In this document: positions 36,076-54,507 of the stretch, in pieces
Numbering within the stretch: the first letter of the stretch is position 1
Layout: each line of letters starts with the position of its first letter
Origin: Nocardioides mesophilus
GTDB taxonomy: Bacteria; Actinomycetota; Actinomycetes; Propionibacteriales; Nocardioidaceae
NCBI RefSeq assembly: GCF_014395785.1
Contig: NZ_CP060713.1
Span: 4,120,501-4,184,500, forward strand
Reading direction: 5' to 3'
DNA: 64,000 bases
Translations under genes and position numbers: made by a program
The notes under the pieces: generated by a model
What the model was told of the DNA's origin: nothing
Seen by the model: only the letters and a program-made list of their open reading frames with translations
Database searches by the model: none

Positions 36076-36175
36076 CGATCTCACCCGCCGCGGGTGACGC
36101 CCCCCTTCCGCCCGAGGCGCCCTAATGGGTGGGTACGACCTCGAGCTGACAGGGACTGCGCACCAGCCCGCGGGA
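36076..36175 (+). repeat. ~100-bp element, copy B, leader of the MFS gene
   Basis: Second copy of the element at 32501-32599. Here it ends directly at GGAGGAGGG, the ribosome site of the MFS gene that starts at 36188. The conserved CCCGCGGGA therefore abuts the Shine-Dalgarno. The stems noted for copy A are kept. The layout resembles a cis-acting RNA leader, but no known class was recognised. Confidence 0.7.
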
Positions 36176-36187
36176 GGAGGGCTGCGC

Positions 36188-37803
36188 ATGGCCGGTCAGA
36201 CGGCGACTGTGTCCCCGGCCAGGAGTGCATCCACCACCGTGCTGCTGACCCTGGCCGCCGGGCAGTTCCTGATGGCGCTCGACAGCTCGGTGATGAACGT
36301 GTCCATCGCGACGGTGGCGAGTGACCTCGGCACCTCGGTCACGGGCGTGCAGAGCGCCATCACGCTGTACACGCTGGTGATGGCGTCGCTCATGATCACG
36401 GGCGGGAAGGTGGGCCAGATCATCGGCCGGAAGCGCGCCTTCGCGCTGGGCTGCGTGATCTACGGGGCCGGGTCGTTCACGCGTCGGTGGCGCCGAACCT
36501 GACCGTGCTGATGCTCGGGTGGTCGCTGCTGGAAGGCATCGGCGCCGCCCTGATCATGCCGGCGATCGTCGCGCTGGTCGCCTCCAACTTCGGCCCAGCC
36601 GAACGTGCCCGGGCCTACGGCATCGTGGCTGCAGCCGCCGCCATCGCGGTAGCGCTGGGACCGCTCATCGGTGGTCTCCTGACGACGTACGCGTCCTGGC
36701 GGTACGTCTTCGCCGGCGAGGTCTTCATGGTCTTGGGCATCCTGCTGCTGGCGCGGCGGATGGCCGACGCGCCCGCCGAGCCGCACGTGCAGCTCGACTG
36801 GGTCGGCACCGTGCTGTCGGCTCTGGGCCTCGGCCTCGTGGTCTTCGGCATCCTCCGGTCCGGCACCTGGGGCTTCTTCTGGCCGAAGCCGAGCGCGCCG
36901 GACTGGCTCGGTCTCTCACCCGTCGTCTGGTTCGTCCTGGGCGGGGGAGTGCTGCTCCTCGGCTTCCTCAACTGGGAGCGCCGACGTCGCGACGCGGGAG
37001 AGGCGGCCCTCATCGACCCATCCCTGCTGCGCAACCCGGGGCTGCAAGGCGGGCTGACCTCCTTCTTCTTCCAGTACCTGCTGCAGAACGGCCTGTTCTT
37101 CACCGTGCCGCTCTTCCTGTCCGTCGCGCTCGGGCTGTCCGCCGTCGAGACGGGCGTGCGGATCCTCCCGCTCTCCCTGGCGCTGCTCCTGACCGCGGTC
37201 GGCGTACCCCGTGCCTTCCCCCACGCCTCGCCCCGCCGGATCGTCAAGCTCGGCTTCCTCGGCCTCTTCCTCGGCATCGTGACGCTGACCGTCGCGCTCG
37301 AGGCCGGAGTCGGCCCCGAGGTGGTCACCTGGCCGATGCTGCTGGCCGGGTTGGGGATCGGCGCGCTGGCCTCGCAGCTGGGCAGCGTCACCGTGTCGGC
37401 GGTGCCCGACGAGGCGAGTGCCGAGGTCGGCGGCCTGCAGAACACGGTCTCCTTCCTCGGTGCCTCGATCGGCACTGCCCTGGCCGGCGCGGTCCTCATC
37501 TCCGGCCTCACCTCCTCCTTCCTCACCGGCATCCAGGAGAACCCAGCCATCCCCCAGAACCTGTCGTCGCAGGCCCAGGTAGACCTCGCCGGAGGGGCGC
37601 CGTTCATCCCCGACGACCAGCTCGAGGCCGCGCTCGAGAACGCGGGAGTGACCGGCAAGACGGCTCAGGCGGTCATGGACGAGAACGAGGAGGCCCGCCT
37701 GGACGGACTCCGGGCGTCCTTGTCCGTGCTCGCGCTCCTCGCGCTCCTGGCCATGTTCTTCACCAACCACCTCCCGACGCGACAGCCCGGCGCGAAAACC
37801 TGA
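36188..37803 (+). pseudogene. MFS multidrug transporter (DHA2, 14-helix type), frameshifted
   Basis: The first ~98 residues (LAAGQFLMALDSSVMNVSIA, then GRKRAFALGCVIYGAGSF) are the usual start of a 14-helix drug:proton antiporter. The frame is lost near 36480 at TTCACGCGTCGG. The rest, from VAPNLTVLMLGWSLLEGIGAA to the stop, continues one base out of phase; one missing base would restore GSFTASVAPNL. The remaining helices and the C-terminal cytoplasmic tail are complete. The ribosome site GGAGGAGGG follows repeat copy B. Substrate unknown. Confidence 0.82.
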
Positions 37804-37876: not shown

Positions 37877-40800
37877 ATGCAATCCATGAGTGCAGCAGCC
37901 GGGGGAGACGGGCTGCTGCCCTACGTTCCCCAGCTCCTGACCGACTGGAGTCCCACGGGCGCCGACGAACGCCACATGGCTGTCACCGGCACCCTCGCGT
38001 TCGTCGACATCTCCGGTTTCACGCAGCTCACCGAACGCCTCGCTCGCAAGGGCAAGGTCGGCGCGGAAGAGATGAGCGACCTTCTCAGCACGACCTTCGG
38101 GGACCTGCTCACAGAGTCGTACGACGACGGGGCCGACCTGGTGAAGTGGGGCGGCGACGCGATGCTGCTGCTCTTCCACGGCCCCGGTCACGCCGCCCGC
38201 GCCGCTCGTGCGGCCCACCGGATGAGAGCGCGCCTGAGGGTCGTCGGCCAGCTCGCGACGAGCTCCGGACGGGTCCGGCTGCGCATGTCGGTGGGCATCC
38301 ACAGCGGGGACTTCGACTTCTTCCTGGTCGGCGACCCCGCTATCCATCGCGAGCTCCTGATCAGTGGTCCGGCCGCGACCACGACCGCGCAGACCGAGGC
38401 CGCCGCGGCGGCGGGGCAGATCGGGCTCAGCGCCGCCACGGCCGCGCTGCTCGACGGCCGCCTGCTCGGACAGCCGCTGCTCGACGGCCGGTTGCTCAGG
38501 TCTGCTCCCGTCCGGCCGGAGTCGTCCGGGACGTTCGGGGGAAGCCCGAGTCTCGAAGCCGCCCGGCTGCTGCTGCCGCCGCCGATTCGCGCGCTGCTCG
38601 GTGCGGGCCCCGTCGAGCCGGAGCACCGGTTGATCACCGTGGGGTTCGTGCAGTACTCGGGCACCGACGAGCTGCTCGTCACGTCCGGCGCGGCGCGCCT
38701 TGCAGAGGCCCTGGACGAGATGGTGCGCAACGTCCAGCACGCCTGCGCAGACCACGACGTGACCTTCTTCGAGAGCGACATCAACAGCGACGGCGGCAAG
38801 ATCATGCTGACCGCCGGGGCGCCGCGGAGTGCGGACCACGACGAGGAGCGCATGCTGCGGGTCGCTCGGCTGGTCCTCGACCGCGCCGGCCGGCTTCCGC
38901 TTCGCATCGGGATGAACCGCGGGCACGTGTTCTCGGGGACTTCGGCCCGTCGTTCCGTCGCACCTACTCGGTCAAGGGCGATGCGATCAACCTCGCGGCG
39001 AGGGTGATGGCGAAGGCGGCTCCCGGTCAGGCGCTTGCCACGCTCGAGGTGCTCAGCCGGTCCCAGACGGTCTTCCGCACGGTCGAGCTGCCGCCCTTCA
39101 GGGTGAAGGGAAAGGCACAGCTCGTGCACGCCGCGGACGTGGGGCAGCGTGTCGGCGCCCGCGTCGAGGAGCGACCGGCCGCGCCGCTGGTCGGGCGCGA
39201 CGACGAGGTGCAGGCACTCGAGCGGGCCGTCGAGGAAGCCCGCGCAGGCCGTGGCCGGCTTCTCGAGGTCGTGGGCGGTGCCGGGCTCGGCAAGTCCCGG
39301 CTCGTGACCGAGGTCCTGACGCGTCGAGAGGACCTCGACGTGCTACCCGCTCCCTGCGAGGCTTACGAGTCGTCAACGCCGTACTTCCCCTTCCGTCGGC
39401 TGTTGCGCGCCGTCTTCGAGGTCCCTCCTGACGCCGCCCCGGAGCGGGTCGCCGAGCTGGTGGCCCGTCGCGTGTCGGCGACGGCGCCGCACCTGGTGCC
39501 CTGGCTGCCGCTGCTCGGCGTCCCGATGGACGTGCCGCTGCCCCCGACCCGGGAGACCGCCGAGCTGGACGAGCAGTTCCGCAAGAGCCGGTTGGAGAGC
39601 GTGGTCACCGAGGTCCTGGGCGCGGTCCTCACCGACCCGACCGTCTTCGTGATCGAGGACGCCCATCTGATGGACGACGCCTCGGTCGACCTCCTGCACT
39701 CCCTGTGCGACGAGCTAGGGGACCGACCGCTTCTCGTGGTCGTGACCCTGCGGGAGCGTCCGAAGGACCTCACGGCAAGCGCGGGCACGGCCCTCACGAC
39801 GCTCAAGCTGGAGCCGCTGGACCCCACGGCCGCGCTCGCGCTGGTCCAAGGGATGCGCGGGGAGCGTCCGCTCACACCGCAGGCAGCCTCGGAGATCGTC
39901 GCGCGCGGTGGCGGCAACCCGATGTTCTTGGAAGCGCTGGTGCTCGAGGCCGGGCGGGCCGGGTCCCTCGCGCGACTTCCCGAGTCGGTGGAAGCGCTGG
40001 TGACCAGCCAGATCGACCGGCTGGACCCCGCGGACCGGACCGTCGTGCGCTACGCCGCGGTGTTCGGAACCGTGGTCGACGAGACCGCCCTGGACCTCCT
40101 GCTCGAGCACCACGACGCGCAAGTGCCCGTCGGTGCGATGCGGCGCCTCGCCGACATGCTGGAGCGCGACGGTCAGGGCGGTCTGCGGTTCCGCAACGCG
40201 CTGATCCGCGACGTCGCCTACGAAGGTCTTCCCTACAGTCGCCGCAAGGCTCTGCACGACCACGTGGGTCAGGTGCTGGAGCAGGCCACCGAGGCGCCGC
40301 AGAACCAGTGCGAGCTGCTGTCCCTGCACTTCTTCCACGCCGGCCGGCACGAGCAGGCCTGGCGGTACTCGGTGCTGGCAGGCGATCGGGCGTTGGCGAA
40401 GTTCGCCCACGGCGAGGCGATCGAGTTCTTCGCCCGCGCCGTCCAGTCAGCGAGCCAGCGACGCGTCGAGGACCGTTACGAGGTCGCCCGGGTGTACGAG
40501 CGGCTGGCGGACTCGCGTTGGCTGGTCGGGCTGACGCAGGAGGCAGCTGAAGCCTACGCCGCTGCCCGGGGCTACCTCCGCGGGGACCCGGTGCGGCTGG
40601 CCGGCATCATCGAGAAGGAGAGCAGGATCGACCAGCGGCGGCGCAAGCACAGCGTCGCCCTGCGCCGCATCTCCACCGGGCTGAACAGGCTCGTGGGCGT
40701 TCCCGGCTCTCCGGCGGGAGTGGCACGCTCGCTGCTCGCCCGCCGGTACGCCCACAGCAGGTTCAGCCAGGGACAGATCGACGAGGCGCTGCGTTGGGCC

Positions 40801-41694
40801 GAGATCGCGGCGTACGAAGCCGAGGAGGCCGCCGACAAGGATGCCGTGGCGCAGGCGTACGAGATGCTCAACTTCATCTACGCGAGCAGCGGCCGGGAGG
40901 AGCCGCTGCCCTACGGCAGGCTGGCTCTCCAGGCGTACGTCGAGCTGGGAAACCTGGCCCGGCAAGGACATTGCCTGAACAACCTCGCAATGCAGGAGTA
41001 CACCGGAGGTCGCTGGGACGAGTCGCTGACCCATCTGCGTGAGGCCAGCGACCTCTTCCACCGGATCGGGGACACCGCGGCCGAGGCCAACGCGCTGTAC
41101 AACCGGGTCGAGCTGCTGGTCCGGCAGGGGAGAGGCACCGACGTCGAGGTCCCGTTGCCCGACGTCTTGAGGATCGCCCGGGCGATGGAGGATGACGAGC
41201 TCGTCGCGCTGGCCCTGCGCGAGCAGGCGCGGGTCGCCGCGCGAGCCGGCGACATCCGCGAGGCGATGGCGCTGCTGGACAAGGCCGGTGCTCTCTTCGT
41301 CGAGCTCGAGGAGCCGGGCGAGTCGCGCAACACCGGCCTGGCGCGGGCGGAGGTGCTGCTGGACGCCGGTCTCGTCGCCGAGGCGGGCGACGTGCTGGCG
41401 GCGCTGACGGGTGCAGGTCAGCCGCTCGACGCCACCGTGCACCGACTGCTGGGTCGGCAGCACCTCGGCGAGGGCCGGCTGACCGAGGCGCGCGCGGCCC
41501 TGCAGGCGGGGGTCGTGGCAGCCCGGGACCAGGCCAACCGCTACGAGGAAGGGCTGCTGCTGCTCGGCCTGGCCGAGCTGGCCCGTCACCAGGGGATGCC
41601 CGACGAGCCGCCGACACGCGCTGCGCGTGCGCTTCTCGACCCGATGGGGGTGTTGCGCAGTGCCGGCGTACGCATCGACCCTCCTCCCCGCTGA
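37877..41694 (+). pseudogene. Tandem class III adenylyl/guanylyl cyclase with AAA ATPase and TPR domains, frameshifted
   Basis: If one base is restored at the GGGG run 38935-38938, this is one protein of about 1270 residues. The first cyclase homology domain (about 30-190) has TLAFVDISGFTQLTERLA and DLVKWGGDAMLLLF, with both metal Asp. The second (about 250-400) has FESDINSDGGKIMLTAGAP and, after the shift, FRRTYSVKGDAINLAARVM. The ATPase part follows: Walker A EVVGGAGLGKSRLVTEV and Walker B VFVIEDAHLMDD. The remaining ~600 residues are TPR-like helices. Such proteins make cAMP (sometimes cGMP) in response to unknown signals. It heads a region with three cyclic-nucleotide-binding proteins. 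Confidence 0.85.
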
Positions 41695-41711
41695 GCAGGG
41701 AGGAGGGTCGA
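41675..41711. terminator. Hairpin between convergent genes
   Basis: A perfect 14-bp stem (TCGACCCTCCTCCC with GGGAGGAGGGTCGA) and a 9-base loop that includes the cyclase stop codon. Placed between convergent genes, it can stop transcription from both sides. Confidence 0.7.
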
Positions 41712-41727
41712 CCCGTTCAGCCCTCGC

Positions 41728-42720
41728 TCAGCCGACGCTGCCTCGCATGTCCTGGGTGAACAGCAGGTACAGCAGGGTGTCCCCGCTGCCGTCCCGCTTG
41801 CTCTGCACGTAGTCGACACAGGCGTCCTGGCCGGCGCCGAGCGTGGCCTTGGCCGGGCATGCCTCGGCGGTCGCGAGCGCGTCGTTGCCGTTGAGGGAGA
41901 ACGACAGGTGCTGGTCCTGGATCGCGCCACCGGCGCACAGGGTCTTGTCGCACTTGATCAGCAGTGCCGCGGGGTCGGTGTCGGTGTACAGGCCGTCCAG
42001 CTGGGCGAGCGCCTGGACCACCGCTCCGCTCGTGCTGCCGCAGCCGGCGTACGTCGTGTCGCAGACACCGAGCGAGAGCAGCACCTGGCTGCTCTGGGCT
42101 CCGTGGGGGAGGATCAGCGTGCCGCACACCGGGTCCGCCGGGGTGGCGTACTGGCAGTTCGAGTCGTCACCGCCGATGCCCTGCTCGAAGCTGGAGTTCG
42201 GTGCGGAGTCGACGAAGCGCAGCTCATTGACCACGTCGAAGCGCTGGTCGGCCGTGGAGGTGCCGGGGGTCACCGTCCGGCCTGCCTTGCCGGGGACCGA
42301 CACGGTCAACGACACCTGGTTCGCAGCCACGGGAAGGCTCGTGTCGAGCGTCACGCTGGTCATCCCGCGCGGAGCCGTGACCGTCGCGGGAGTGGGGCCA
42401 CCCTGGTCGCTGGTGATCACCAGCGGGGTGTCCTTCTGGAACGAGGCGGGTGCGCCGTAGACGTCGTAGAAGCTCACCCGGACGTGGATCGTGCCGCCGG
42501 CCTGCACGAGGACGTACGGCACCGCGGCGCCAGGGGTGCCGGTGGGTGCCTGGACGTCGGAGGTCACCCCGTCGATGACGATCGTGACCGGGGCCGGACT
42601 GGCAGCGCTTGCCGTGCTCACCACCAGCCCACCGACTGCCGCGATCAGTGAGCCCAGAAGGGCCAGCACGAGCGCGAGGCGGCGACGCCGTGGGGTCTTG
42701 CTCGAACGCGTGGCACGCAC
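41728..42720 (-). CDS. Secreted protein of unknown function
   Basis: A 330-residue protein with GTG start. A basic twin-Arg-rich start (KTPRRRRLALVLALLG) and a hydrophobic core end in a signal-peptidase-like STASAASPA. The mature part has a beta-rich first half that looks like an Ig-like or cadherin-type fold (VTIVIDGVTSDVQAP, GGTIHVRVSFYDVYG), then a Cys-rich second half (pairs in NCQYATPADPVCG, CDTTYAGCG, KCDKTLCAGG and EACPAK), probably disulfide-bonded outside. I do not recognise the family. It is divergent from the MFS-cNMP-patatin gene across a 193-bp spacer with an AT-rich patch (GGGAATATCCTATTTAACT). Confidence 0.75.
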   Translation of the reverse strand: MRATRSSKTPRRRRLALVLALLGSLIAAVGGLVVSTASAASPAPVTIVIDGVTSDVQAPTGTPGAAVPYVLVQAGGTIHVRVSFYDVYGAPASFQKDTPLVITSDQGGPTPATVTAPRGMTSVTLDTSLPVAANQVSLTVSVPGKAGRTVTPGTSTADQRFDVVNELRFVDSAPNSSFEQGIGGDDSNCQYATPADPVCGTLILPHGAQSSQVLLSLGVCDTTYAGCGSTSGAVVQALAQLDGLYTDTDPAALLIKCDKTLCAGGAIQDQHLSFSLNGNDALATAEACPAKATLGAGQDACVDYVQSKRDGSGDTLLYLLFTQDMRGSVG

Positions 42721-42913
42721 GAAAAATCACTTCCGTCCAGGGAATCAGGGAATATCCTATTTAACTTGTCAGTGTGATCGGATGCGGTCAATGACCCGAT
42801 CGGGCCAGGGCGCAGCGCTGTGCGCATGTTCGTGCCGACCGCTTGTCAGCGGGCCTCGAAGACCGACAGACTGCGCCAGCGGCTGCGCAGCCGCACAGAC
42901 GGGGGGGGCTGAC

Positions 42914-45900
42914 ATGGCGGGATCGTCGGGGGCACGCGTGCCTGCATCCAGAGTGCTCCTCGTCTCCGCGTTCGGCGCGTTCCTCGCCTTCCTGGACGCG
43001 ACGATCGTCAACGTCGCCTTCCCGTCGATCCGGGAGTCCTTCCCCGGGCAGTCGATCGGAGGACTCTCGTGGGTCCTGAACGCCTACAACATCGTCTTCG
43101 CGGCGTTCCTGATCGTCTGTGGCCGGCTCACCGACCTGCTCGGCCGTCGACGTGCCTTCGTGACCGGCGTCCTGCTCTTCACCGTCGCGTCCGGCCTGTG
43201 CGGCGCAGCGCCCACGATCTCCTTGCTGGTCGCGGCCCGCATCCTCCAGGCGCTGGGGGCGGCGCTGCTGGTGCCCGCCTCGCTCGCGCTGGTCGTCGAC
43301 GCCTTTCCGGAGGAACGACGGGCGCATGCGATCGGCCTGTGGGGGGCCACCGCTGCCGTCGCCGCCGGTCTGGGCCCACCCCTGGGCGGGGTCCTGGTGG
43401 AGGCGGGCGGCTGGCGTTGGGCCTTCCTGGTCAACCTGCCGTTCGGGCTGGCCGCGCTGTGGGCCGCTCGCCGCCAGCTCGTCGAGAGCCGCGCGCCGGG
43501 TCGCCGTACGATGCCGGACCTCCGCGGTGCCGCCCTGCTTGCTGCCGCGATGGCCTTGTTGAACCTGGCGATCATCAAGGGCAGCGACTGGGGGTGGACC
43601 AGCACAGCGCTGCTCGGGTCTTTCGCCGCATCCCTGGTGCTCCTGGGCCTCTTCGTCATGAGCTCGCGCGCCCACCGCTCGCCACTGCTCGACGCGGCGC
43701 TGCTCAGGATCCCCTCCTTCAGCATCGCCTCACTGGCCACCATCCTGGCCGGGCTCGGCTTCTTCGCCTACCTGCTGACGAACATCCTGTGGCTCCAGTA
43801 CATCTGGGGCTACGACGTGCTGCACGCCGGTCTCGCGCTCGTGCCCGGAGCGCTGGTGGCGGCCGTCGTCGCGTCGCGCCTGGGACCGCTCGCCGACCGT
43901 CACGGCTACCGGCTGTTCGTGGTGCCGGGTGCGCTGGTGTGGGCGGGCGCCTACCTCTGGTACCACCAACGGACCGGGCTGGAGCCGGCGTTCTGGAGCG
44001 AGTGGTTCCCCGGCCAGGTCCTCAGCGGCATCGGGGTGGGCGCCACCCTCCCGCTTCTGGGAAGCGCCGCCCTGGCAGCCGTCCCGGGCGGCCGCTACGC
44101 CACCGCCTCCGCGGTGGTCTCCAGCGCGCGTCAGCTGGGCGGTGTGCTGGGCATCGCGATCCTGGTGGTGATCGTGGGCGATCCCTCGCCGGCGACCGCC
44201 GTGACCGCCTTCCGCCACGGCTGGGTCCTCTCGATCTGCGCGTTCCTGGCCGTGGCACTGCTCTCGCTCCCGTTGGGCAAGCTGCGCGGCGTGGACGAGG
44301 AGTCCGAGGACGACGACGAGCCGGCCGCGCGGATCCAGGCGAGCACCCGGCCGGTGGCCGGGTCGTCGACGCCTCCCGGGGCCGGTGACAGCCAGACCGG
44401 CCTGCAGGGGGTGGCCCTGCTGGCGGGGCTGCCCGAGGGTGCCCGCCGGCGGCTGGAGGAGTCCGCCCGGCTGGTCACCGTTCCAGCTGGTGCCTGGCTC
44501 ATGCGTGAGGGCGATCCGCCCGGTTCGGCGTACGTCGTGCGACGCGGTCGTCTCGAGGTCCATGTCGACGGCCGTAGCGTGCGCGAGCTCGGCGCCGGTG
44601 CGGTGCTGGGTGAGCTGGCGCTGCTCACCGGTGAGAACCGCTCGGCGAGCGTCCGGGCCCGCCGGGACTCGGTGGTCCTCGAGATACCTCGCGAGGCGTT
44701 CGAGGAGCTGTTGACGACCGACCCGACCGCATCCCGCGTGGTGCTGGCGCAGGTGGCCGAGCAGCTGCGCACCGCCGGCGCCCCGACGACCTTCCAGCCC
44801 GCGGCCCAACCGACGGTGATCGCCGTGGTGGGGCTGCACCCCGGCTCCGGTGCAGGTGCGGTGGCCGACGCGCTCTTCCGCCGGCTGTCGATCCACCACA
44901 CGGTCACGATGTGCGGGGTGGTGGGCGCCGAGGGTCTCGACCGCGCCGAGCGCGACCACGGGCGGGTGCTGCTGCTGGCCGAGGAGGGCGGCGAGGGGGG
45001 TGCCGCGTGGCGTGACTTCACCCTGCGGCAGGCCGACGCGGTGGTGCTCGTCTCCCGCAGTGACGCCCCGGTTCCTCCGGCGCCGCTGTCCCCGGCGCCT
45101 CTGCGTCGCCCGGAGCTGGTGCTGGCCGGGACCGACCCCGGTCCGGTGGACCGGGTGGCCTGGCGGGCCTGGGCCGATGCATGGCAGGTCACGGTGGTCG
45201 ACGGCGACGTCACCGCAGGCACGCGGGCCCTGGCGGACCGGCTTGCCGGCCGGTCGCTGGGCCTGGTGCTCGGTGGTGGCGGCGCTCGCGCGTTCGCCCA
45301 CATCGGCGTCCTGCGTGAGCTGGCCGAGGCGGGACTGCACGTCGATCGCGTCGCAGGCACCAGCGTGGGTTCGCTCATCGCGGCCGTCCACGCCTCCGGG
45401 CTGGACGGGGAGGCGCTCGAGGAGCTCTGCTACGCCGAGCTGGTGCGCCGCAATCCCTTCAGCGACTGGCGATTCCCGACCCGGTCACTCGCCCGGGGTG
45501 CTCGGATCAGCGACGGGCTGCAGCGCGCGTTCGGTGAGGCGGTGATCGAGGGTCTGCCGCGCCAACTCGCCACGGTGAGCACCGACCTGGTGACCCGCAC
45601 CCGGCAGGTGCACCGGGAAGGTCGCGTCACCCGGGCCGTCCAGGCCTCGTTGAACCTGCCGGTGCTGTTCGCGCCGATCGCCGACGAGGAAGGCAGGCTC
45701 CTCATCGACGGTGGCGTCCTCGACAACCTGCCTGTCGACCTGCTCACCGAACGGGACGAGGGTCCGGTCGTGGCCGTCAACATCGCCATGGGAGGTGGCA
45801 GCGGGAGCACCCGCGCCGCTCACGCCACCCGCCGCCCGGCCCGGGTCCCGGCGCTGGGGGAGACGCTGCTCCGGACGATGACCATCGGCAGTGGTGGTGT

Positions 45901-46135
45901 CGTCGCGGCGGCCCTCGCGCGGGGGGCGTGGGTCGTCACGCCGCCGACCCTGGGCGTAGGACTCCTCGAGTTCCACCAGTTCGACCGCATGGTCGCAGCG
46001 GGCCGAAGCGCGGCCCGCCTGCTGCTCGAGGAGGCCGGTGAGGGCCTGGGCGCCCGTCTCGTCGCGCAGGAGGCCCCGTCCACGGGTCTGCACGAGTCGG
46101 CGCCGCCCGACGCGGAGCCGGTGGCGGCGCTCTGA
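42914..46135 (+). CDS. Triple fusion: MFS transporter, cyclic-nucleotide-binding domain, patatin-like phospholipase
   Basis: One uninterrupted 1073-residue protein. Residues ~10-455 form a DHA2-type MFS unit: FLAFLDATIVNVAFPSI is the first helix, and GRLTDLLGRRRAF the loop. Residues ~498-600 form a cNMP-binding domain with VLGELALLTGENRSASVR, the phosphate-binding cassette with its Glu and Arg. Residues ~632-780 are a degenerate P-loop-like segment (VVGLHPGSGAG), as in long NTE-type proteins. Residues ~781-1030 form the patatin domain: oxyanion loop LVLGGGGARAFAHIGVL, nucleophile Ser in GTSVGSL and catalytic Asp in LIDGGVLDNLP. NTE-like enzymes hydrolyse (lyso)phospholipids; fusion to a pump suggests export or flipping linked to lipid turnover. 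The ATG at 42914 follows a run of nine or more G. Confidence 0.9.
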   Translation: MAGSSGARVPASRVLLVSAFGAFLAFLDATIVNVAFPSIRESFPGQSIGGLSWVLNAYNIVFAAFLIVCGRLTDLLGRRRAFVTGVLLFTVASGLCGAAPTISLLVAARILQALGAALLVPASLALVVDAFPEERRAHAIGLWGATAAVAAGLGPPLGGVLVEAGGWRWAFLVNLPFGLAALWAARRQLVESRAPGRRTMPDLRGAALLAAAMALLNLAIIKGSDWGWTSTALLGSFAASLVLLGLFVMSSRAHRSPLLDAALLRIPSFSIASLATILAGLGFFAYLLTNILWLQYIWGYDVLHAGLALVPGALVAAVVASRLGPLADRHGYRLFVVPGALVWAGAYLWYHQRTGLEPAFWSEWFPGQVLSGIGVGATLPLLGSAALAAVPGGRYATASAVVSSARQLGGVLGIAILVVIVGDPSPATAVTAFRHGWVLSICAFLAVALLSLPLGKLRGVDEESEDDDEPAARIQASTRPVAGSSTPPGAGDSQTGLQGVALLAGLPEGARRRLEESARLVTVPAGAWLMREGDPPGSAYVVRRGRLEVHVDGRSVRELGAGAVLGELALLTGENRSASVRARRDSVVLEIPREAFEELLTTDPTASRVVLAQVAEQLRTAGAPTTFQPAAQPTVIAVVGLHPGSGAGAVADALFRRLSIHHTVTMCGVVGAEGLDRAERDHGRVLLLAEEGGEGGAAWRDFTLRQADAVVLVSRSDAPVPPAPLSPAPLRRPELVLAGTDPGPVDRVAWRAWADAWQVTVVDGDVTAGTRALADRLAGRSLGLVLGGGGARAFAHIGVLRELAEAGLHVDRVAGTSVGSLIAAVHASGLDGEALEELCYAELVRRNPFSDWRFPTRSLARGARISDGLQRAFGEAVIEGLPRQLATVSTDLVTRTRQVHREGRVTRAVQASLNLPVLFAPIADEEGRLLIDGGVLDNLPVDLLTERDEGPVVAVNIAMGGGSGSTRAAHATRRPARVPALGETLLRTMTIGSGGVVAAALARGAWVVTPPTLGVGLLEFHQFDRMVAAGRSAARLLLEEAGEGLGARLVAQEAPSTGLHESAPPDAEPVAAL

Positions 46136-46141
46136 GCCCGG

Positions 46142-46972
46142 TCAGGCGCGAGGGCGCACGTCGAGCGTCATGCCTTCTCGTGCCACGACCACCGGTATCC
46201 CGTCGGCGAGTCCCGGAGCCCATGCGGCGATCTCGTCCAGGGCCGCATCCGAGCGGGCAGGGGAGTGGTGGAACAGCACGAGCTTGCCCGCCCCGCAGTC
46301 GCGGGCGAGCTTGATGCAGTCCTGCACGGTCGCGTGCCCGTAGTCGACCGCGACCGGCCGCTCGTGGTCGAGGAACTGCGCGTCGTGCACCAGGACGTCG
46401 ACCCCCTGCAACGCGGTCTTCAGGCGGTCGGAGATCCCGGCAGCCGGCGCGTGGTCGGGGAGGTAGGCCAACGATCCATGCTCGTCCTCCACCAGGAAGC
46501 AGAAGGTGCGTCCACCCTTGTGCTCGACGTCCACGGCGGTGACGGCGAAACCCTCGATCGTGTGGCTGCCCTCGTGCAGGTCCTGGAACCCCCAGCTTCC
46601 GTGGAGCCCCTCCGGTGGGATCGGGAACGAAGGGGGCGAGAACGACTGCGCCAGCAGGTCACGCGCTGAGCGTCCGTCCTGCGCCGGCACGTAGAGGTCG
46701 ATGCGGGCGTCCGGACGATCGCCGGCGCCGAAGAACGGCAACCCCATCATGTGGTCCCAGTGGAGGTGGCTGAGCACGATCGAACCCTCGAAGGCGCGGC
46801 CACCCAGCAGCGGTGTCAGCGAGCGGAGACCGGTGCCGGCGTCCAGCACGAGGGCCGGCGCGTCGGCGCCCTCCCTGGTCAGCGACACGCACGAGGTGTG
46901 ACCGCCGTAGCGGACGAAGTCCGCCCCGGGCGCAGGGGTGGATCCGCGGACACCCAGCATCTGCAGCTTCAT
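46142..46972 (-). CDS. MBL-fold metallo-hydrolase, possibly a cyclic-nucleotide phosphodiesterase
   Basis: A 276-residue metallo-beta-lactamase-fold protein. Metal motif SHLHWDHMMGLPFF (HxHxDH), then HEGSHTIEGFAV, the bridging Asp near LAYLPDHAP, and further His in DAQFLDHERP and GHATVQDCIKLA. The N-terminus MKLQMLGVRGSTPAPG with RYGGHTSCVSL is like the PhnP/class II cyclic phosphodiesterase and RNase Z-like branch. Specificity cannot be read from the sequence. Its place between two cNMP-binding transporters and near a cyclase makes cAMP hydrolysis an attractive hypothesis. Six bases separate its stop from the end of the convergent fusion gene. Confidence 0.82.
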   Translation of the reverse strand: MKLQMLGVRGSTPAPGADFVRYGGHTSCVSLTREGADAPALVLDAGTGLRSLTPLLGGRAFEGSIVLSHLHWDHMMGLPFFGAGDRPDARIDLYVPAQDGRSARDLLAQSFSPPSFPIPPEGLHGSWGFQDLHEGSHTIEGFAVTAVDVEHKGGRTFCFLVEDEHGSLAYLPDHAPAAGISDRLKTALQGVDVLVHDAQFLDHERPVAVDYGHATVQDCIKLARDCGAGKLVLFHHSPARSDAALDEIAAWAPGLADGIPVVVAREGMTLDVRPRA

Positions 46973-47015
46973 GCGATCACCGCGGCACCCTAGCAGCGCG
47001 CCGGTCGGTCACGGG

Positions 47016-48716
47016 TCAGACCGCGAGCCGTCTGGTGACGATGTCCTCGGCAGCCGACCGGGCATCGATCTGGCCGGTGACGGCGTCCAGGAAGTCGTCG
47101 CGCTCCAGCGCCAGCAACTCGGTCTCCTCGACCGCGGTGAGGGTGGCAGTGCGCGGCACGTCCCGGAGCAGTCCGATCTCCCCGAAGAAGTCTCCAGGTC
47201 CCTCGGTGCGCAGCACGGCGGTGTCCTGGGTGACCTGCATGGACCCCGAGGAGATGACGTAGAAGCGGTCCGACGGCTCGCCCTCCCGGATGAACACCTC
47301 GCCCGCCGGCACGACGACCGGCGTGAGCCGGCGGGCCAGCGTCTCCAGGACCGCCGGCGTCAGCGGTGCGAACATCGGGATGGCCTGGAGGAGGTCGATG
47401 CCGACCGGCCGGGTCAGTCGGTCGTCGAGCCGGCGCATCCGCGGCAGGCCGGTGAGCGCGACCACGGTGACGGCGGTGCCGAGCACCGCGAGGGCGGTAC
47501 GGAGGCCGAGCCAGCTCTCGAGGAGCGGCATCAGCACGGCGCCGAGGGCCATGGTCGAGATCAGGCACGTCTCCACCGCGCCGAAGACCCGACCGAGCAC
47601 CTCGTCGGGGGCGATGCGCTGGAAGATCGTGTCCATGTTGACGTCGACCAGTGGGTTCCCGAGGCCCAGGAGCGCGACGGCCACGAACGCGGCGACGGGA
47701 TGCGGCCAGACGCTCACCAGCAACAACGGCAGCGCCCACAGCACGACTCCGGCAGTCATGTCCTGCGCAAGCTTGAGGCGGGTGGCGCGCGCTATCGCCA
47801 GGAACCCGCCGACGATGGCCCCGACGCCGAGGACGGAGTCGAGATAGCCGACGCCGCGCGGCCCCGACCCGAGGATGTCCACCGCCATGACGATCGTGAA
47901 GACGGCCGAGGCGCCGGCGACCACCGTCTGGGCGCTGACCTGGGTGGTCACGACGAGCAGGTCGCGGTCAGCCAGGATGGTGCGGAACCCGGCCAGGGTC
48001 TCGGTCAGGAACGACTGCTTCGGCGTGTCCTCGTCGTCCGCGTCGGCCTTGGCTCGAGGGGCCGCAGCCGCTGGAACCCGGACGCCGACCACGAACAGCG
48101 CGGACCACAAGAAGGTGCCGGCGTTGACCAGGAAGACGACCGGCACATCGGCAACCCCCAGCAGAAGGGCTCCCAGGGCCGGGCCGACGAAGAAGGCCAG
48201 GCTCTCCAGGGTGCTCGCCGTCCCGTTCGAGGCGGTGAGCTCCTCGGGCCTGTTCGCCAGTGCCGGCATCAGCGCCCGTTGTGCGGGCCGGAAGGCGGTT
48301 CCCGACAGCGAGGCCAGGGTGGCCAGCACGAACACCGTCGCCGCCGGAAGATCGAGGAACAAGCAAAGTGCGGCCAGCATGACCAGCACGGCGCGGGTCA
48401 GGTCGGAGCCGATCATGACCTTCTTGCGCGGCAGCCGGTCCGCGATGGTCGCTCCGATCGGAGACGTGAAGGCCAACAGGGTCAGCCGGATCGCCGTCCA
48501 GATGCCCACCGCCTGGGTGCCGCCGACGCCGTAGGCCCAGACCGCCACGGCGGTGGCATACGCCCAGTCCCCGATCATCGAGCCGGCCAGCGCCAGCTGG
48601 ACGCGTCGGAGGTTCGGGTTGCGGAAGACGGACCTCAGGGAGTCGCCGGTGCTCCGCACGGCTGAGCGGGTGCTCGTCAGAGGAGACGCCGCCGCCTCCT
48701 CCGAGATGTCGGTCAT
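47016..48716 (-). CDS. MFS transporter with C-terminal cyclic-nucleotide-binding domain
   Basis: A 566-residue protein. About twelve membrane helices (residues ~35-420) belong to the MFS_3/enterobactin-exporter-like group (SMIGDWAYATAVAVWAYGVGG, GATIADRLPRKKVMIGSDLTR). A cNMP-binding domain follows (~430-560): VPAGEVFIREGEPSDRFYVISSG, then GDFFGEIGLLRDVPRTATLTA, a complete phosphate-binding cassette with Glu and Pro-Arg-Thr. The start at 48716 has the ribosome site AGGAGGG. It shares its architecture, but not its MFS subfamily, with the fusion at 42914. It lies 43 bp downstream of the divergent MBL gene and probably exports a small molecule under cNMP control. Confidence 0.9.
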   Translation of the reverse strand: MTDISEEAAASPLTSTRSAVRSTGDSLRSVFRNPNLRRVQLALAGSMIGDWAYATAVAVWAYGVGGTQAVGIWTAIRLTLLAFTSPIGATIADRLPRKKVMIGSDLTRAVLVMLAALCLFLDLPAATVFVLATLASLSGTAFRPAQRALMPALANRPEELTASNGTASTLESLAFFVGPALGALLLGVADVPVVFLVNAGTFLWSALFVVGVRVPAAAAPRAKADADDEDTPKQSFLTETLAGFRTILADRDLLVVTTQVSAQTVVAGASAVFTIVMAVDILGSGPRGVGYLDSVLGVGAIVGGFLAIARATRLKLAQDMTAGVVLWALPLLLVSVWPHPVAAFVAVALLGLGNPLVDVNMDTIFQRIAPDEVLGRVFGAVETCLISTMALGAVLMPLLESWLGLRTALAVLGTAVTVVALTGLPRMRRLDDRLTRPVGIDLLQAIPMFAPLTPAVLETLARRLTPVVVPAGEVFIREGEPSDRFYVISSGSMQVTQDTAVLRTEGPGDFFGEIGLLRDVPRTATLTAVEETELLALERDDFLDAVTGQIDARSAAEDIVTRRLAV

Positions 48717-49004
48717 CGGCCCTCCTGGCACGTCGGCGACGTCGCGCGATGCAGACATCGGGAACCCCGGCACCGATGCTGCCCTTCGTGGGGCATCACC
48801 GCCATAGTCCACTTCACCGGACAAAGGTTGTGAAAAGGATGTTCTGCTAGCCCGAACGGACCAGTGCCCGGCACCGCCGTCACTGACCGGCTCCCGGAGG
48901 GAAACCGAGAGGCGCCGTGGGGCCGCCGTTCCAGATATTCGAGACCGAAACCGAGGTGCGAGGACTAAAGACCCCGGTCCGGGCGCCGGCTCGGACCTAG
49001 CCTC

Positions 49005-49457
49005 ATGTCGAAGGCGGGGGCCTTCGGGGGACAGCTGAGCGGGGTGACGTCGATGGTGTCGGACGAGACGCGCGCGTCCTCGGGCCCGGTGGTGATCGAG
49101 CGGATGCAACCGGGTCGGTGGCGCCTGGTCCGGGACACGTTCTTGTGGGCGTCGGTGTCGGATCCTGCTCGTCGACCGCTGTGCGAGCACCAGATCGGCG
49201 TGGCCAGCGAGACCGGGGCCGAGTGGATCGCGCGGCTGGAGTGTGACGGGTGGTGGCTCGCCTTCGCCGACGGAGTCGTGATCGGCATCGTCGGTGTTGC
49301 TCCGCAGCACGAACAGACCGACGTGCTGCAGCTTGTCATCCACTGGGTCGCGCCGCCATGGCGTTCGCGCGGCATCGGCCGACAGCTCTTGCTGGCCGCC
49401 CAGGCCGGGGTCGCCGACACCCGGGCGGGTGCGCCCCGGCCGGGGCCGAGGACCTAG
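49005..49457 (+). CDS. GNAT family acetyltransferase, short C-terminus
   Basis: A 150-residue protein. WRLVRDTFLWASVSDP, then GVVIGIVGVAP and VIHWVAPPWRSRGIGRQLLLAAQ, the acetyl-CoA motif (RSRGIGRQL), identify the fold. After that only ~20 residues remain (ADTRAGAPRPGPRT), so the last strand and helix of a normal GNAT are missing. It may be truncated or frameshifted near the GC-rich end. Starts at 49005 or 49053 are both possible; the second still includes the whole fold. It is upstream of the App1-type gene. Confidence 0.6.
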   Translation: MSKAGAFGGQLSGVTSMVSDETRASSGPVVIERMQPGRWRLVRDTFLWASVSDPARRPLCEHQIGVASETGAEWIARLECDGWWLAFADGVVIGIVGVAPQHEQTDVLQLVIHWVAPPWRSRGIGRQLLLAAQAGVADTRAGAPRPGPRT

Positions 49458-49484
49458 CTGCCCGCCACGACATACGGTGCTCCC

Positions 49485-50502
49485 ATGAGCGTGCACCGTT
49501 GGGTCGTGGGCCTCGAGCGGGCCTGGGACACCGCCCGGCTGCGCCGCGCCGGCTCGCGCCCCCTGACCACTTCCGGATCGAGGCGTACGGCGGGCACGGC
49601 AGCACCGACGGGGTCGTCGTCCGGGGCCGCGTCCTCGACGACCCGCCGCTGTCGGAGGCCGTCGAGGGGGAGGGGGTCGGAGCCGCGATCCGCCGCACGG
49701 TGCGCGGCTTCGTCACCGACGAGCTGCCAGGGGTGCCGCTCCGGGTCACGGTGGCGGACACGACCGCCGAGACCGCCAGTGACGCCGAGGGCTACTTCCT
49801 CACCCGGCTGCGCCCGGACCCCGACCAACTCACCAGCCCCTGGACGTGCGGCACCGTCGAGCTCGCCGGTGAGTACCGCGGCGTTACCGACCCGCACCGC
49901 ACGCCGTTCGAGGTGCGCGTCACCGGACCCGACGCCCGGTTCGGCGTCGTGTCCGACGTCGACGACACGATCCTCGAGACCGGTGTCCAGCGGGTCGCCC
50001 GGATGATCCACCAGACGTTCACCGGCTCGGCCCTCACCCGCACGCCGTTCCCGGGCGTAGCGGAGCTGTATCGCGACCTCGCCGGCAGCGGCAATCCGGT
50101 CTTCTACGTCTCCTCCAGCCCGTGGAACCTGCACACCTTCTTGACGCGCTTCCTGCAGCATCGGGGGTTCCCGATGGGACCGGTGCTGCTGCGCGACCTG
50201 CTCGGCACCGCGACCGGGCGCGAGCAGAAGACCGGCCGCATCCGGGAGATCCTCGAGCTCAACCCCGAGCTGCCGTTCGTCCTGATCGGGGACTCGGGGA
50301 GAAGGATCCCGAGATCTACGCCGACATCGTCGACGCCTGCCCCGGGCGGATCCTGGCGGTCTACATCCGCGAGGTGCGGCTCGACCCGGGGGACGGACGG
50401 GTCGAGAAGGTCGCCGGCACGTGGGCGCACGACGTCCCGTTCGTGATCGCGGCGGACAGCGACGCCGTACGCCGGCACGCCGCCGCACTCGGTCTGATCT
50501 GA
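49485..50502 (+). pseudogene. App1-family (DUF2183) phosphatidate phosphatase-like protein, two frameshifts
   Basis: Restoring one C in the run 49559-49563 and one G in 50296-50299 gives a single ~338-residue protein. The start is HRWVVGLERAWDTARLRRAG, then HFRIEAYGGHGS and VVVRGRVLDD (beta-sandwich part). The catalytic HAD-like motif is VSDVDDTILETG, followed by FPGVAELYRDL and VFYVSSSPWNLHTFL, LIGDSG and EKDPEIYADIV. App1 proteins dephosphorylate phosphatidate to diacylglycerol. Both breaks are single-base losses at C or G runs, so the gene may be intact in the organism. Neighbouring patatin suggests shared lipid metabolism. Confidence 0.8.
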
Positions 50503-50662
50503 GCCGTCCCGCTCACCGGCGAGGTCCGCGATTTCCCGCACCGGGCGGCGCGGCCTGTGCCAGAGTCTCCGCGTGGTCGTCCGGGGACCACCCGGTGACC
50601 AGCCAGGTCCCGGGAGGGATGCGACGACGGTCACGGCCGCCGCGACGAAGGGGAGAGATGGC

Positions 50663-51334
50663 ATGACGTTGGCGGCCGAGGGCAGCACGGACACCCGGGA
50701 CATGCTGGTGGTGCACACCGCGATCCGGCGCGAGTTCCGGTTGGCGCCCGGGTTGGTGCTCGGCGTTGCCGAGGGGGACACCGAGCGCAGTGCCGTGGTG
50801 GCCGAGCACGTGGCAGACCTGCTGAGGCTGCTGCACCACCACCACCAGGGCGAGGACCGGCTGATCTGGCCGCTCATGCTCGAGCGCCTGCCGGAGGACC
50901 TGGCCCCCATCGTGCACACGATGGAGTCGCAGCACGCCGGGATCAGCGCGAGCATCGAGCAGGTCGAGGAGGCGCTGCCCGCCTGGCGCTCCAGCGCCGC
51001 AGCCGGGTTGGGCGAGGATCTCGCCGCACGGCTGGAGGCGATGCGCACCCTGCTCGAGGAACACCTGGCGCTGGAGGAGCGCGAGCTCCTGCCGCTTGCC
51101 GCAAGGGCACTGTCGCAGCAGGAGTGGGACCGGCTGGGGGAGGAGGGCATGGCGTCGCTGGACAAGAAGGACGCGTCCCTGGCGCTCGGCATGTTCATGT
51201 ACGAAGGCGACCCGGCCGTCATCAAGACGATGCTCTCGCACGCGCCGCTGCTGCCCCGGCTGCTGCTGCCGCACCTGGCTCCCGCGGCCTACCGGCGTTA
51301 TGCCCGGCGGGTCTACGGCACCACGACCCCCTAG
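50663..51334 (+). CDS. Hemerythrin HHE domain protein
   Basis: A 223-residue protein. A four-helix HHE bundle (residues ~10-150) has His ligands in VVHTAIRREFR, LLHHHHQGEDRLIWP, MESQHAGISAS and LEEHLALEERELLPL. A C-terminal helical tail follows (WDRLGEEGMASLDKKD onward). Bacterial members bind a di-iron centre and sense or carry oxygen or NO. The ATG at 50663 has GGGGAGAG upstream. It is convergent with the cNMP-binding protein at 51349, with 14 bp between them. Confidence 0.88.
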   Translation: MTLAAEGSTDTRDMLVVHTAIRREFRLAPGLVLGVAEGDTERSAVVAEHVADLLRLLHHHHQGEDRLIWPLMLERLPEDLAPIVHTMESQHAGISASIEQVEEALPAWRSSAAAGLGEDLAARLEAMRTLLEEHLALEERELLPLAARALSQQEWDRLGEEGMASLDKKDASLALGMFMYEGDPAVIKTMLSHAPLLPRLLLPHLAPAAYRRYARRVYGTTTP

Positions 51335-51348
51335 GAGGCGCGCCGGCG

Positions 51349-52371
51349 TCAGTCCGCGCTGACCCCGTGGTGCTCGCGGTCATGGAGGTCGGAGAGCTGG
51401 CGGAGCCGGTCGAGGTCGAGCTGGTCCTTGCCGGTGACCGCGATCCTGACCGGGGTGACCGCCGTCAGCGTGGACGTGCGCAGTCCTCCTTCGAGCACCG
51501 CCCTCTCGCCGAGCACCGCGCCGGGACCGACCTGTCCCACGGCCTCTCCGTCCACGTCGACGGAGAGCACGCCGTCGAGCACCAGGTAGATGTCGGTGCC
51601 GGGCTCGCCCTGCCGGGTCAGCACCGTGCCCGCCGGCAGCCGACGGACCTGCGGCCTCTGCCCGCTGCGCATGATCTCGGTCGACAGCTGCCGCTCGAGC
51701 TCCGACTCGACCGTCAGGACCAGGGCCTCCCGGTCACTGTGACCCCAGGGAGTCCGCCGGCCGAACGAGTGGCTCATCCACTCGGACTGCTCGGTCAGCC
51801 CGGTCTTGTACGCGATGTGGCCGCGGGTGTCGTAGACCCAGTGACGGGGGAACGCGCTGGCCCCGACGAGCTCGACGTCACTGCGGCCGTCGGCGTGGAT
51901 CGTCAGGAGCAGGGTGGTCCAGACGATCGGGGCCTGCCATTGCATGAAGGGCGCGTGCGGGACCGGTCGGGGAAGCGGTACGCCGGTGGCGCCGCCGACG
52001 GTCTGGGTGAGGGTGACCCGCTCCTCGGTGCGTTGCGGGTCGCCGCGCAGGACCGGTAGCGAGACCGCACGGAACGTGGCGCCGAGCTTCCCGACCCGCA
52101 CCGTGGTCGATCCCATCACCAGGTCGGAGTCGTCGCCGTAGCCCGCGGCGACGATGCGGCCGTCCTCGACCTCCGCCCATCCCGAGAGCACGTTGGCGAA
52201 TCGGAACTTGTCCAGCCGGCACAGCTCCTGCACGGCCTCGGGGCCGGCGAGCTGGTCGGGGAGGGGCTGGTCCCAGTGGGCCAGCTTGAGATTCATCCCG
52301 AGTCGGAGCGGCCCTGTCAGTGACTCCGACGGGATCCAGGAGATAGTCGTGCCGGTCGCCTCGATACGCAT
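51349..52371 (-). CDS. Unknown N-terminal domain fused to a cyclic-nucleotide-binding domain
   Basis: A 340-residue soluble protein. The N-terminal ~215 residues have alternating strands (GTTISWIPSESLTGPLRLGM, LVMGSTTVRVGKLGATFRAV and WVYDTRGHIAYKTG) without a family I know. Residues ~235-330 are a cNMP-binding domain: VRRLPAGTVLTRQGEPGTDI, then VDVDGEAVGQVGPG and AVLGERAVLEGGLRTSTLTA, where Glu and Arg-Thr-Ser of the phosphate cassette are present. No HTH is seen, so it is not a CRP-type regulator. It is the third cNMP-binding protein in 10 kb. Confidence 0.82.
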   Translation of the reverse strand: MRIEATGTTISWIPSESLTGPLRLGMNLKLAHWDQPLPDQLAGPEAVQELCRLDKFRFANVLSGWAEVEDGRIVAAGYGDDSDLVMGSTTVRVGKLGATFRAVSLPVLRGDPQRTEERVTLTQTVGGATGVPLPRPVPHAPFMQWQAPIVWTTLLLTIHADGRSDVELVGASAFPRHWVYDTRGHIAYKTGLTEQSEWMSHSFGRRTPWGHSDREALVLTVESELERQLSTEIMRSGQRPQVRRLPAGTVLTRQGEPGTDIYLVLDGVLSVDVDGEAVGQVGPGAVLGERAVLEGGLRTSTLTAVTPVRIAVTGKDQLDLDRLRQLSDLHDREHHGVSAD

Positions 52372-53854: not shown

Positions 53855-54507
53855 GACTCCAGGCGGTAGCCGATGCCGCGCACCGTCTCCACCAGGTGGC
53901 GGCCCAGCTTCCGTCGCAGGTAGCCCACGTACACCTCGACGGCGTTGGGGTGCACCTCGGCCGCCGCGTCCCAGACGTGGTCGAGGATCTCCACCTTGGT
54001 CACCACCCGGCCCGGGCGGCGCAGGAAGTACTCCAGCAGGCCGTACTCCCGCGGCGTCAGGCTCACCGGCTGCTCGGCGACGGTGACGTGCCGGGTCGCC
54101 GGGTCCAGCCTGACGTCGCCGGCCGCGAGCACCGCCGGCCGGGCGTACGGCGCCCGACGCAGCAGGGCACGGAGCCGCGCGAGCAGCACCACGTAGGAGA
54201 ACGGCTTGGTGAGGTAGTCGTCGGCGCCGCAGTCGAGGCCGTCCGCCTGGTCGTGCTCGCCGTCCTTGGCGGACAGCATCAGCACCGGGACCCAGTTCTC
54301 CTCGGCCCGTAGCGCACGCACCACCTCGTAGCCGGACAGCCGGGGAAGCATCACGTCCAGCAGGACCGCGTCGAAGTCGTCGTGCCGCGCCAGCTCGAGC
54401 CCGCTGGCGCCGTCGGTCGCGACCTCGACGGCGAAACCGTCGGCCACCAGACCGCGGCGCAGCGCGTGCGCCAGGCGCACCTCGTCCTCGACCACGAGCA
54501 GTCGCAT
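53851..54507 (-). CDS. OmpR/PhoB-type response regulator
   Basis: A 218-residue regulator. The receiver (1-115) has VVEDE, the phosphoacceptor Asp in AVLLDVMLP and the Lys in DYLTKPFSYVVLL. A winged-helix output domain (125-218) has LTPREYGLLEYFLRRPGRVVT and VYVGYLRRKLG. It is coupled to the kinase gene and divergent from the LolA-like/ABC operon at 54586 across 78 bp; that operon is the likely target. Confidence 0.94.
   Translation of the reverse strand: MRLLVVEDEVRLAHALRRGLVADGFAVEVATDGASGLELARHDDFDAVLLDVMLPRLSGYEVVRALRAEENWVPVLMLSAKDGEHDQADGLDCGADDYLTKPFSYVVLLARLRALLRRAPYARPAVLAAGDVRLDPATRHVTVAEQPVSLTPREYGLLEYFLRRPGRVVTKVEILDHVWDAAAEVHPNAVEVYVGYLRRKLGRHLVETVRGIGYRLES

Follow-up and report, generated by a model that had tools for sequence, protein, structure and literature searches.

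A gene cluster of Nocardioides mesophilus points to two probable abutting local cyclic-nucleotide cassettes with effectors unlike CRP

The DNA analysed here, called the window, is a stretch of 64,000 nucleotides of the Nocardioides mesophilus genome (NZ_CP060713.1, positions 4,120,501 to 4,184,500; window coordinates are used below). Between positions 37877 and 52371 it harbors a tandem class III cyclase, two major facilitator superfamily (MFS) transporters fused to a cyclic nucleoside monophosphate (cNMP)-binding domain, one of which continues into a patatin phospholipase domain (MFS-cNMP-patatin and MFS-cNMP), a metallo-β-lactamase (MBL)-fold hydrolase, and a third cNMP-binding protein, designated cn3 (Table 1). 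The whole genome (4.49 Mb) has five cNMP-binding domains and seven matches to the cyclase domain PF00211. A 7.2-kb part of the window holds three of these five cNMP-binding domains, for which the chance probability is about 8e-5. We describe how these genes are grouped in relatives and what cyclic-nucleotide signaling they may carry out.

The cyclase gene appeared as two open reading frames (ORFs; 37877-39007 in frame 2 and 38146-41694 in frame 1), the first ORF encoding the metal-binding domain and the start of the second cyclase homology domain (CHD2), and the second ORF the remainder. The frameshift at their junction lies near 38936, inside CHD2. The tandem cyclase with AAA and tetratricopeptide repeat (TPR) parts described in a first-pass annotation of this DNA is thus present in all its domains, but not as one ORF. 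We searched a family sample of 149 Nocardioidaceae genomes, own genome included; L numbers denote fetched loci. The other family genomes with a match, 11 in number, all encode the two cyclase domains in a single stop-free open frame of at least 1201 aa. The APP1-type gene further downstream is also broken, and so is an MFS gene upstream of the cyclase (36125-37803, + strand), which is interrupted near 36480 in the same manner as the cyclase and APP1 genes. Three same-looking breaks within 14 kb, all on the + strand, suggest indel errors of assembly. Gene decay was considered less likely, because a third gene is broken alike and the frames on either side are still coding-like.

The first cyclase homology domain (CHD1) keeps both metal-binding Asp residues (DISGFT and GGDA) and lacks the Asn/Arg pair. 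CHD2, conversely, has lost the metal-binding Asp residues but retains N and R (NLAAR). The residues that we take to be catalytic in the class III cyclase pair, D55 and D105 of CHD1 and N382 and R386 of CHD2 (numbering of the L144 protein), are invariant across six aligned relatives, and the window pieces agree. The best PDB match of the L144 cyclase region was human ADCY10 (soluble adenylyl cyclase, sAC; E 7.5e-15), with which the metal region of C1 and the NLAAR region of C2 both align. According to Pfam, the catalytic pair is followed by AAA_16 and then TPR in the L144 protein and in the second ORF of the window. As judged by these alignments, the tandem cyclase is of the sAC-type architecture, with two unlike domains and one composite site, and its product is likely cAMP.

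The three cNMP-binding domains matched PF00027 with E values of 2.5e-21 (MFS-cNMP-patatin), 1.3e-20 (MFS-cNMP), and 7e-16 (cn3). As the first-pass annotation had stated, all three retain the phosphate-cassette Glu and Arg (GELALL..RSAS, GEIGLL..RTAT, and GERAVL..RTST), and no DNA-binding Pfam domain was found in any of the three proteins, which sets them apart from CRP/FNR regulators. The two transporters differ in MFS type, one being EmrB/DHA2-like and the other 2A0121-like, and their translation starts likely lie inside the listed ORFs, at 42914 (1073 aa) for MFS-cNMP-patatin and at 48716 (566 aa) for MFS-cNMP. The patatin domain carries GGGGAR, GTSVG, and DGG motifs. On balance, we lean slightly towards a direct gating of MFS or patatin activity by the nucleotide.

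The HxHxDH motif reported earlier for the hydrolase was found as HLHWDH in a PF12706 match (E 1.3e-21), and the metal ligands H69, H71, D73, H74, D173, and H235 are invariant in 32 aligned MBL members. PF12706 is also the family of Rv1339, which lowers cAMP (PMC9293780). Among related MBL-fold enzymes, YhfI is reported to prefer cAMP/cGMP and Apyc1 to be broad (PMC9117128). The window MBL shares the fold and keeps the metal ligands of these atypical class II phosphodiesterases (Rv1339, YhfI) and of Apyc1, whereas its score for the Rv1339-type model NF041851 (42.9 bits, cut-off 400) places it in a separate family. Members of this family adjoin cn3 (L026, L028), MFS-cNMP-patatin (L143, L144), and MFS-cNMP (L149, L150), as well as cyclases without a listed effector (L151, L152, L154). 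Of the 12 family genomes with this MBL (counting the own genome), 10 have a cNMP or cyclase gene as its neighbor, the exceptions being L153 and L161. What these partners share is a cyclic nucleotide, and its hydrolysis is therefore the simplest role of the MBL, which is probably a cNMP phosphodiesterase. A separate Rv1339-type hydrolase is encoded elsewhere in the same genome (G000:C1:712286-713041, L173; 257.8 bits to NF041851, below the cut-off of 400), so that the cluster MBL is not the sole candidate cNMP phosphodiesterase.

In the family sample, the C-half of MFS-cNMP-patatin was found in 8 of the 149 genomes, the tandem cyclase region in 12 (E 1e-30), the MBL in 12 (E 1e-30), and the MFS-cNMP protein in 24 (E 1e-40). 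The cyclase, the secreted-looking protein, MFS-cNMP-patatin, and the MBL stand in the same order as in the window in L144. L145 and L146 have the cyclase, the secreted-looking protein, and both MFS proteins, with gene orders that differ from the window; L143 keeps the convergent pair of MFS-cNMP-patatin and MBL, L186 and L187 keep the cyclase and the secreted-looking protein, and in L190 a more distant tandem cyclase adjoins two cNMP genes. The secreted-looking protein, which could be part of the sensing, is convergent with the cyclase in L144, L145, L146, L186, and L187 (34-64% identity). In five of the seven other genomes that have the C-half of MFS-cNMP-patatin (L144, L145, L146, L148, L162) a cyclase gene lies at most 5 kb from it, by ORF edges. 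Outside the window there are ten MFS-cNMP genes of at least 46% identity; nine were fetched with wide loci, and seven of these nine are within 1.3 kb of a cyclase gene.

We compared the occurrence of these genes across the 149-genome sample with the own genome left out, taking for MFS-cNMP 10 of its 24 genomes (identity at least 47%) and for the cyclase 9 of its 12 (E 1e-50 or better). All pairs were associated by Fisher's test: cyclase-patatin (p 1.2e-4), cyclase-MFS (1.2e-5), cyclase-MBL (0.014), patatin-MFS (0.005), patatin-MBL (0.009), and MFS-MBL (0.002). No link was detected in the same genomes between cn3 and the cyclase (p 0.18), MFS (0.21), or patatin (0.53). The first-pass annotation had proposed that the whole cluster exerts direct, non-CRP control and had suggested a check of whether its parts co-occur and stay adjacent. 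Co-occurrence and adjacency hold for the cyclase, MFS-cNMP-patatin, MFS-cNMP, and MBL (hereafter cassette A), which are grouped across genera, along with the secreted-looking protein, as neighbors in varying subsets; this supports a direct, non-CRP action of a cyclic nucleotide. They do not hold for cn3, and the view of the whole cluster as a single system was rejected on that account. The parts of cassette A are, in our judgment, very probably linked in function; we do not put this more strongly because 7 of the 11 other tandem cyclases have no nearby cNMP gene.

A wider count gave a similar picture. Among 77 cNMP domains and 74 cyclase matches of 25 family genomes, 12 of the 52 domains that were not the top cNMP match of their genome lay at most 5 kb from a PF00211 cyclase (0.63 expected), and the top matches, assumed to be CRP-like, did so in 2 of 25 genomes. 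The three domains of the window, at 6.0, 8.6, and 12.9 kb from the cyclase, are not counted among the 12. In a phylum sample of 396 genomes, the cNMP-patatin part was found in 10 (E 1e-50), one being the own genome. The other nine yielded ten loci, in which the edge of a cyclase-domain ORF lies at most 5 kb away in L163, L165, L167, L168, and L169, and no such ORF was found within that distance in L164, L166, L170, L171, and L172. In several of these loci the ORF with the cNMP-patatin part does not include an MFS part, and the cyclase domain proper of L163 lies about 7 kb away. It should be mentioned that the neighborhood cNMP profile was built from 17 seeds, one of which (window MFS-cNMP) was in the wrong frame, and still recovered the known domains; the neighbor-cyclase profile was built from 7 seeds drawn from cn3 neighbors. 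Denser islands than that of the window, with at least three separate cNMP-domain ORFs, were seen in L148, L166, L168, and L170, with a cyclase domain too in L148 and L168.

Full-length or almost full-length relatives of cn3 are present in 13 of 149 family genomes and 29 of 396 phylum genomes (E 1e-50, own included in both). No match to cn3 was found in phage or plasmid records. In named genomes there are 246 confirmed loci, of which the best 80 were kept, so that the cn3 statistics lean to nearer relatives; several Actinomycetota groups, Dormiibacterota, and Chloroflexi are among them. L022-L025, which repeat L035, L036, L061, and L086, were dropped, and the neighborhood clustering recovered the cn3 ORF in 82 of 89 loci. 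All 87 aligned members matched PF00027 in the C-terminal part, where G288, E289, and R298 are invariant (E289 and R298 in 87/87), and invariant residues of the N-terminal part are W12, I13, P14, R57, Q123, W151, F174-W178, and W209. The N-terminal domain gave no usable Pfam match in the 87 members, and in a PDB sequence search the best 60 of 156 matches all lay on the cyclic nucleotide-binding (CNB) part. In an AlphaFold model (mean pLDDT 79.8, pTM 0.71) the N-terminal domain is beta-rich; fold searches with this model were filled by CNB domains on the C-terminal part.

Apart from the window, a class III cyclase domain lies at most 4.5 kb from cn3 in 65 of 88 loci, and in 40 of the 48 that have at least 5 kb on both flanks. 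The MBL is present in cis in 43 of the 88, and in 39 it is directly downstream on the same strand at a distance of at most 300 bp. The 65 cyclases comprised 42 response-regulator fusions, 18 long ATPase-TPR-like ORFs (a class defined by an ORF length above 850 aa), 2 alpha/beta-hydrolase fusions, and 3 that were unclassified or cut. Examples checked by Pfam were L030 (ATPase-TPR), L066 (response regulator), and L043 (hydrolase), and L083 was assigned by likeness. A quick cn3 tree requires at least eight changes of cyclase class; near the window cn3 on this tree, a long cyclase lies immediately upstream in L021, L036, and L061, and L035 lacks one within reach. These results suggest that cn3 is a separate, widespread family, forming a different module, in which it is joined by cyclases of its own and by the same MBL. 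A FAD/NAD-binding oxidoreductase was also seen in 17 of 89 cn3 loci, often right behind cn3-MBL (for example L037, which has an amine-oxidase Pfam match, and L052, L070, L074, L092, L098, L101, and L106). The response-regulator cyclase upstream of cn3 (L044, L066, L067, L085, L092) often adjoins ABC and FtsX/MacB transporter genes and a HisKA_3 histidine kinase.

We consider it probable that the window holds two abutting cyclic-nucleotide cassettes that act locally and without CRP, through effectors dedicated to them and with a phosphodiesterase built in. In cassette A, the sAC-type cyclase, regulated by its ATPase/TPR part, would sense a cue and make a cyclic nucleotide, most likely cAMP, which would bind the cytoplasmic CNB domains of MFS-cNMP-patatin and MFS-cNMP and directly switch export and phospholipase activity. 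In cassette B, cn3 would be a soluble effector that binds the nucleotide; most members of its family are encoded close to a class III cyclase, and in the window its gene lies downstream of a two-component pair. The MBL, common to both kinds of cassette, would degrade the nucleotide and reset the signal. The domains, active-site residues, co-occurrence, and adjacency are observed, and the ligand, the gating, the transported substrate, the hydrolase activity, and the cue of the sensor part are what we infer from them.

Several observations weigh against this model. If the frameshift of the window cyclase is genuine, the gene may be dead. A cNMP gene lies near the tandem cyclase in only 4 of 11 other genomes (L144, L145, L146, L190), and none was found in the stretch fetched near the cyclase in L186, L187, L188, L189, L191, L192, and L193. 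No near cyclase was found for MFS-cNMP-patatin in L143 and L147 or for MFS-cNMP in L158 and L160, and the full gene set of the window was found in none of the fetched loci. The p values of the co-occurrence tests ignore shared ancestry, and their cut-offs were chosen by the analyst. In 15 of 88 cn3 loci no cyclase or MBL is in reach, some of these being ended by contig edges, and cn3 in the window is 12.9 kb from the cyclase, with none adjoining it. The best PDB matches of the MBL profile were RNase Z (8.1e-16), and its substrate may therefore be an RNA. Chain 6kns, which the Rv1339 paper names YhfI (PMC9293780), followed well behind at 9.5e-5, and no chain named Apyc1 was found at E 0.001, which is no evidence against kinship.

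The genes might act through a common cAMP pool and a CRP network, their clustering being that of co-regulated genes and not of a dedicated pathway. The genome does have one strong CRP-like cNMP domain beside its seven cyclase matches, and the 7 of 11 other tandem cyclases without a cNMP gene nearby fit a shared pool. Such a pool would need no pairing, yet several cyclase classes are found with the same effector family and the same MBL with different effectors, and we regard this explanation as unlikely. An assembly by chance is very improbable: MFS, patatin, and cyclase genes are common in actinobacteria, and within the family cn3 showed no link to the cyclase/MFS/patatin set, but the adjacency conserved in several genera already disfavors it, as does the enrichment of non-top cNMP domains near cyclases.

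An immune-like role, in which the cyclase senses invasion, a patatin or transporter set off by the cNMP damages the membrane, and the MBL acts as a restraint, seems quite unlikely to us, although parts of the evidence fit. Sensors of the ATPase/TPR kind and patatin effectors are characteristic of defense, and the distribution is patchy (8 of 149 genomes for MFS-cNMP-patatin and 13 of 149 for cn3). The layout is that of Pycsar, defined as a cyclase with a cNMP-domain effector (PMC11224242), and in both a class III cyclase and such an effector (in Pycsar, PycC with PycTM or PycTIR) are paired locally. PADLOC models of Pycsar and of phospholipase effectors matched parts of the proteins; the PycC models gave 8.7e-5 for the first cyclase ORF of the window, 5.6e-7 for L144, 1.8e-19 for L066, and 1.4e-21 for L036. 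These matches, however, lie on the CHD, CNB, and patatin domains, which are widely shared, and not on TIR or PycTM parts; the best in the window (1.3e-16) is to a TIR-effector model, in its CNB part. The cassette cyclases differ from those of Pycsar in carrying ATPase-TPR, response-regulator, or hydrolase parts, with the MBL in cis, and the effectors are MFS-cNMP(-patatin) and cn3, in which the PycTIR/TIR-effector models match the CNB part only; as the defining effectors are absent, we do not class the system as Pycsar. The scanned neighbors in the window are genes of metabolism, transport, or two-component systems, among which PADLOC gave two stray matches; cn3 was not matched in phage or plasmid records, and the response-regulator fusions at 42 of the 65 cn3 loci with a near cyclase suggest ordinary sensing.

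The local-cassette model has counterparts in known systems. ADCY10, like the window-type cyclase, has two unlike catalytic domains followed by a P-loop/STAND part. Animal sAC is described as functionally paired with SLC9C1/sNHE, a Na+/H+ exchanger that carries a cNMP domain (PMC6660944, PMC12802110). In comparison, the window system is bacterial, has MFS instead of SLC9 transporters, and adds patatin and MBL. NTE/PNPLA6-type lipases resemble MFS-cNMP-patatin by description, since PNPLA6 has a CNB domain and then a patatin domain; in the window protein a DHA2-type MFS replaces the membrane anchor. Rv3728 and Rv3239c of Mycobacterium tuberculosis have the MFS-cNMP-patatin architecture. The former appears in published lists both as a pump for efflux and as a lipolytic enzyme, the latter as an efflux pump (PMC6300501, PMC10865251), and the cyclase-like Rv2561 near the two cNMP proteins Rv2564/Rv2565 was noted in 2016 (PMC4886424, Table 2 and section 9). 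The likeness to Rv3728/Rv3239c is by description, and a cassette with MBL and a secreted-looking protein was not found in the excerpts of these sources. The earlier statement that no such system was known to be described has to be qualified in view of these published proteins. A recurring cassette in which cyclases are exchanged, the cn3 family, and a partner MBL were not found in the titles and abstracts of the open-licence literature.

More tentatively, and as a conjecture that we rate below the two-cassette model, Actinomycetota and relatives may use plug-in cassettes in which any sensor-cyclase (ATPase-TPR, response-regulator, or hydrolase fusion) is combined with a dedicated effector and its own MBL off-switch, cassette A being perhaps a bacterial counterpart of animal sAC/SLC9C1. 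The effectors would be cNMP-gated MFS exporters, a cNMP-gated exporter-phospholipase, and cn3 with a new cNMP-controlled domain. If so, a cyclic nucleotide produced on the spot would directly switch the transporters of cassette A, and to our knowledge a ligand-gated MFS exporter would be a new way of controlling efflux. Mycobacteria encode numerous cyclases and proteins predicted to bind cAMP, and the effectors are described as poorly understood (PMC9995111). The pairings described here provide cyclase-effector-hydrolase sets that can be tested. They are relevant, too, to a question left by the authors of Apyc1, namely whether host MBL enzymes serve other cNMP signaling systems (PMC9117128).

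Both lipid-related domains of the first-pass annotation, patatin and APP1, were matched, the latter in a broken frame; neither APP1 nor the hemerythrin has a homologue in any fetched neighborhood of relatives. Both were rejected on this ground as probably not module members, and a lipid link through the phosphatidate phosphatase is therefore unsupported. The secreted-looking protein gave no Pfam or NCBIfam match, and a promoter and terminator scan of the window found nothing above background. The histidine kinase gene is separated from cn3 by 118 bp, and the response regulator, the histidine kinase, and cn3 possibly form an operon.

Table 1. Features of the cluster and its flank, in window coordinates.
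Feature	Position	Strand	Basis or remark
Predicted sAC-type class III cyclase gene	37877..41694	+	Pfam/NCBIfam scans, ORF comparison with relatives
CHD1 of cyclase	37991-38455		
CHD2 of cyclase	about 38612-39150		
AAA_16 of cyclase	39184-39741		
TPR of cyclase	near 40975-41133		
Secreted-looking protein, family not recognised	41728..42720	-	convergent with cyclase; signal-like N-terminus by eye
MFS (EmrB/DHA2 type)-cNMP-binding-patatin	42914..46135	+	Pfam/NCBIfam
cNMP-binding domain of this protein	44474-44719	+	
Patatin domain of this protein	about 45263-45745		
MBL-fold hydrolase PF12706, putative cNMP phosphodiesterase	46142..46972	-	HLHWDH at 46751-46768
MFS (2A0121/MFS_3 type)-cNMP-binding	47016..48716	-	Pfam/NCBIfam
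cNMP-binding domain of this protein	about 47082-47318	-	
APP1-type phosphatidate phosphatase, frameshifted near 50298	49358..50502	+	APP1_cat E 1.6e-35; probably outside module
Hemerythrin HHE protein	50663..51334	+	probably outside module
cn3, 340 aa: beta-rich N-terminal domain (residues about 1-200) and cNMP-binding domain (about 243-318)	51349..52371	-	
cNMP-binding domain of cn3	about 51418-51645	-	
Histidine kinase	52490-53854	-	upstream of cn3, same strand
Response regulator	53851-54507	-	upstream of cn3, same strand

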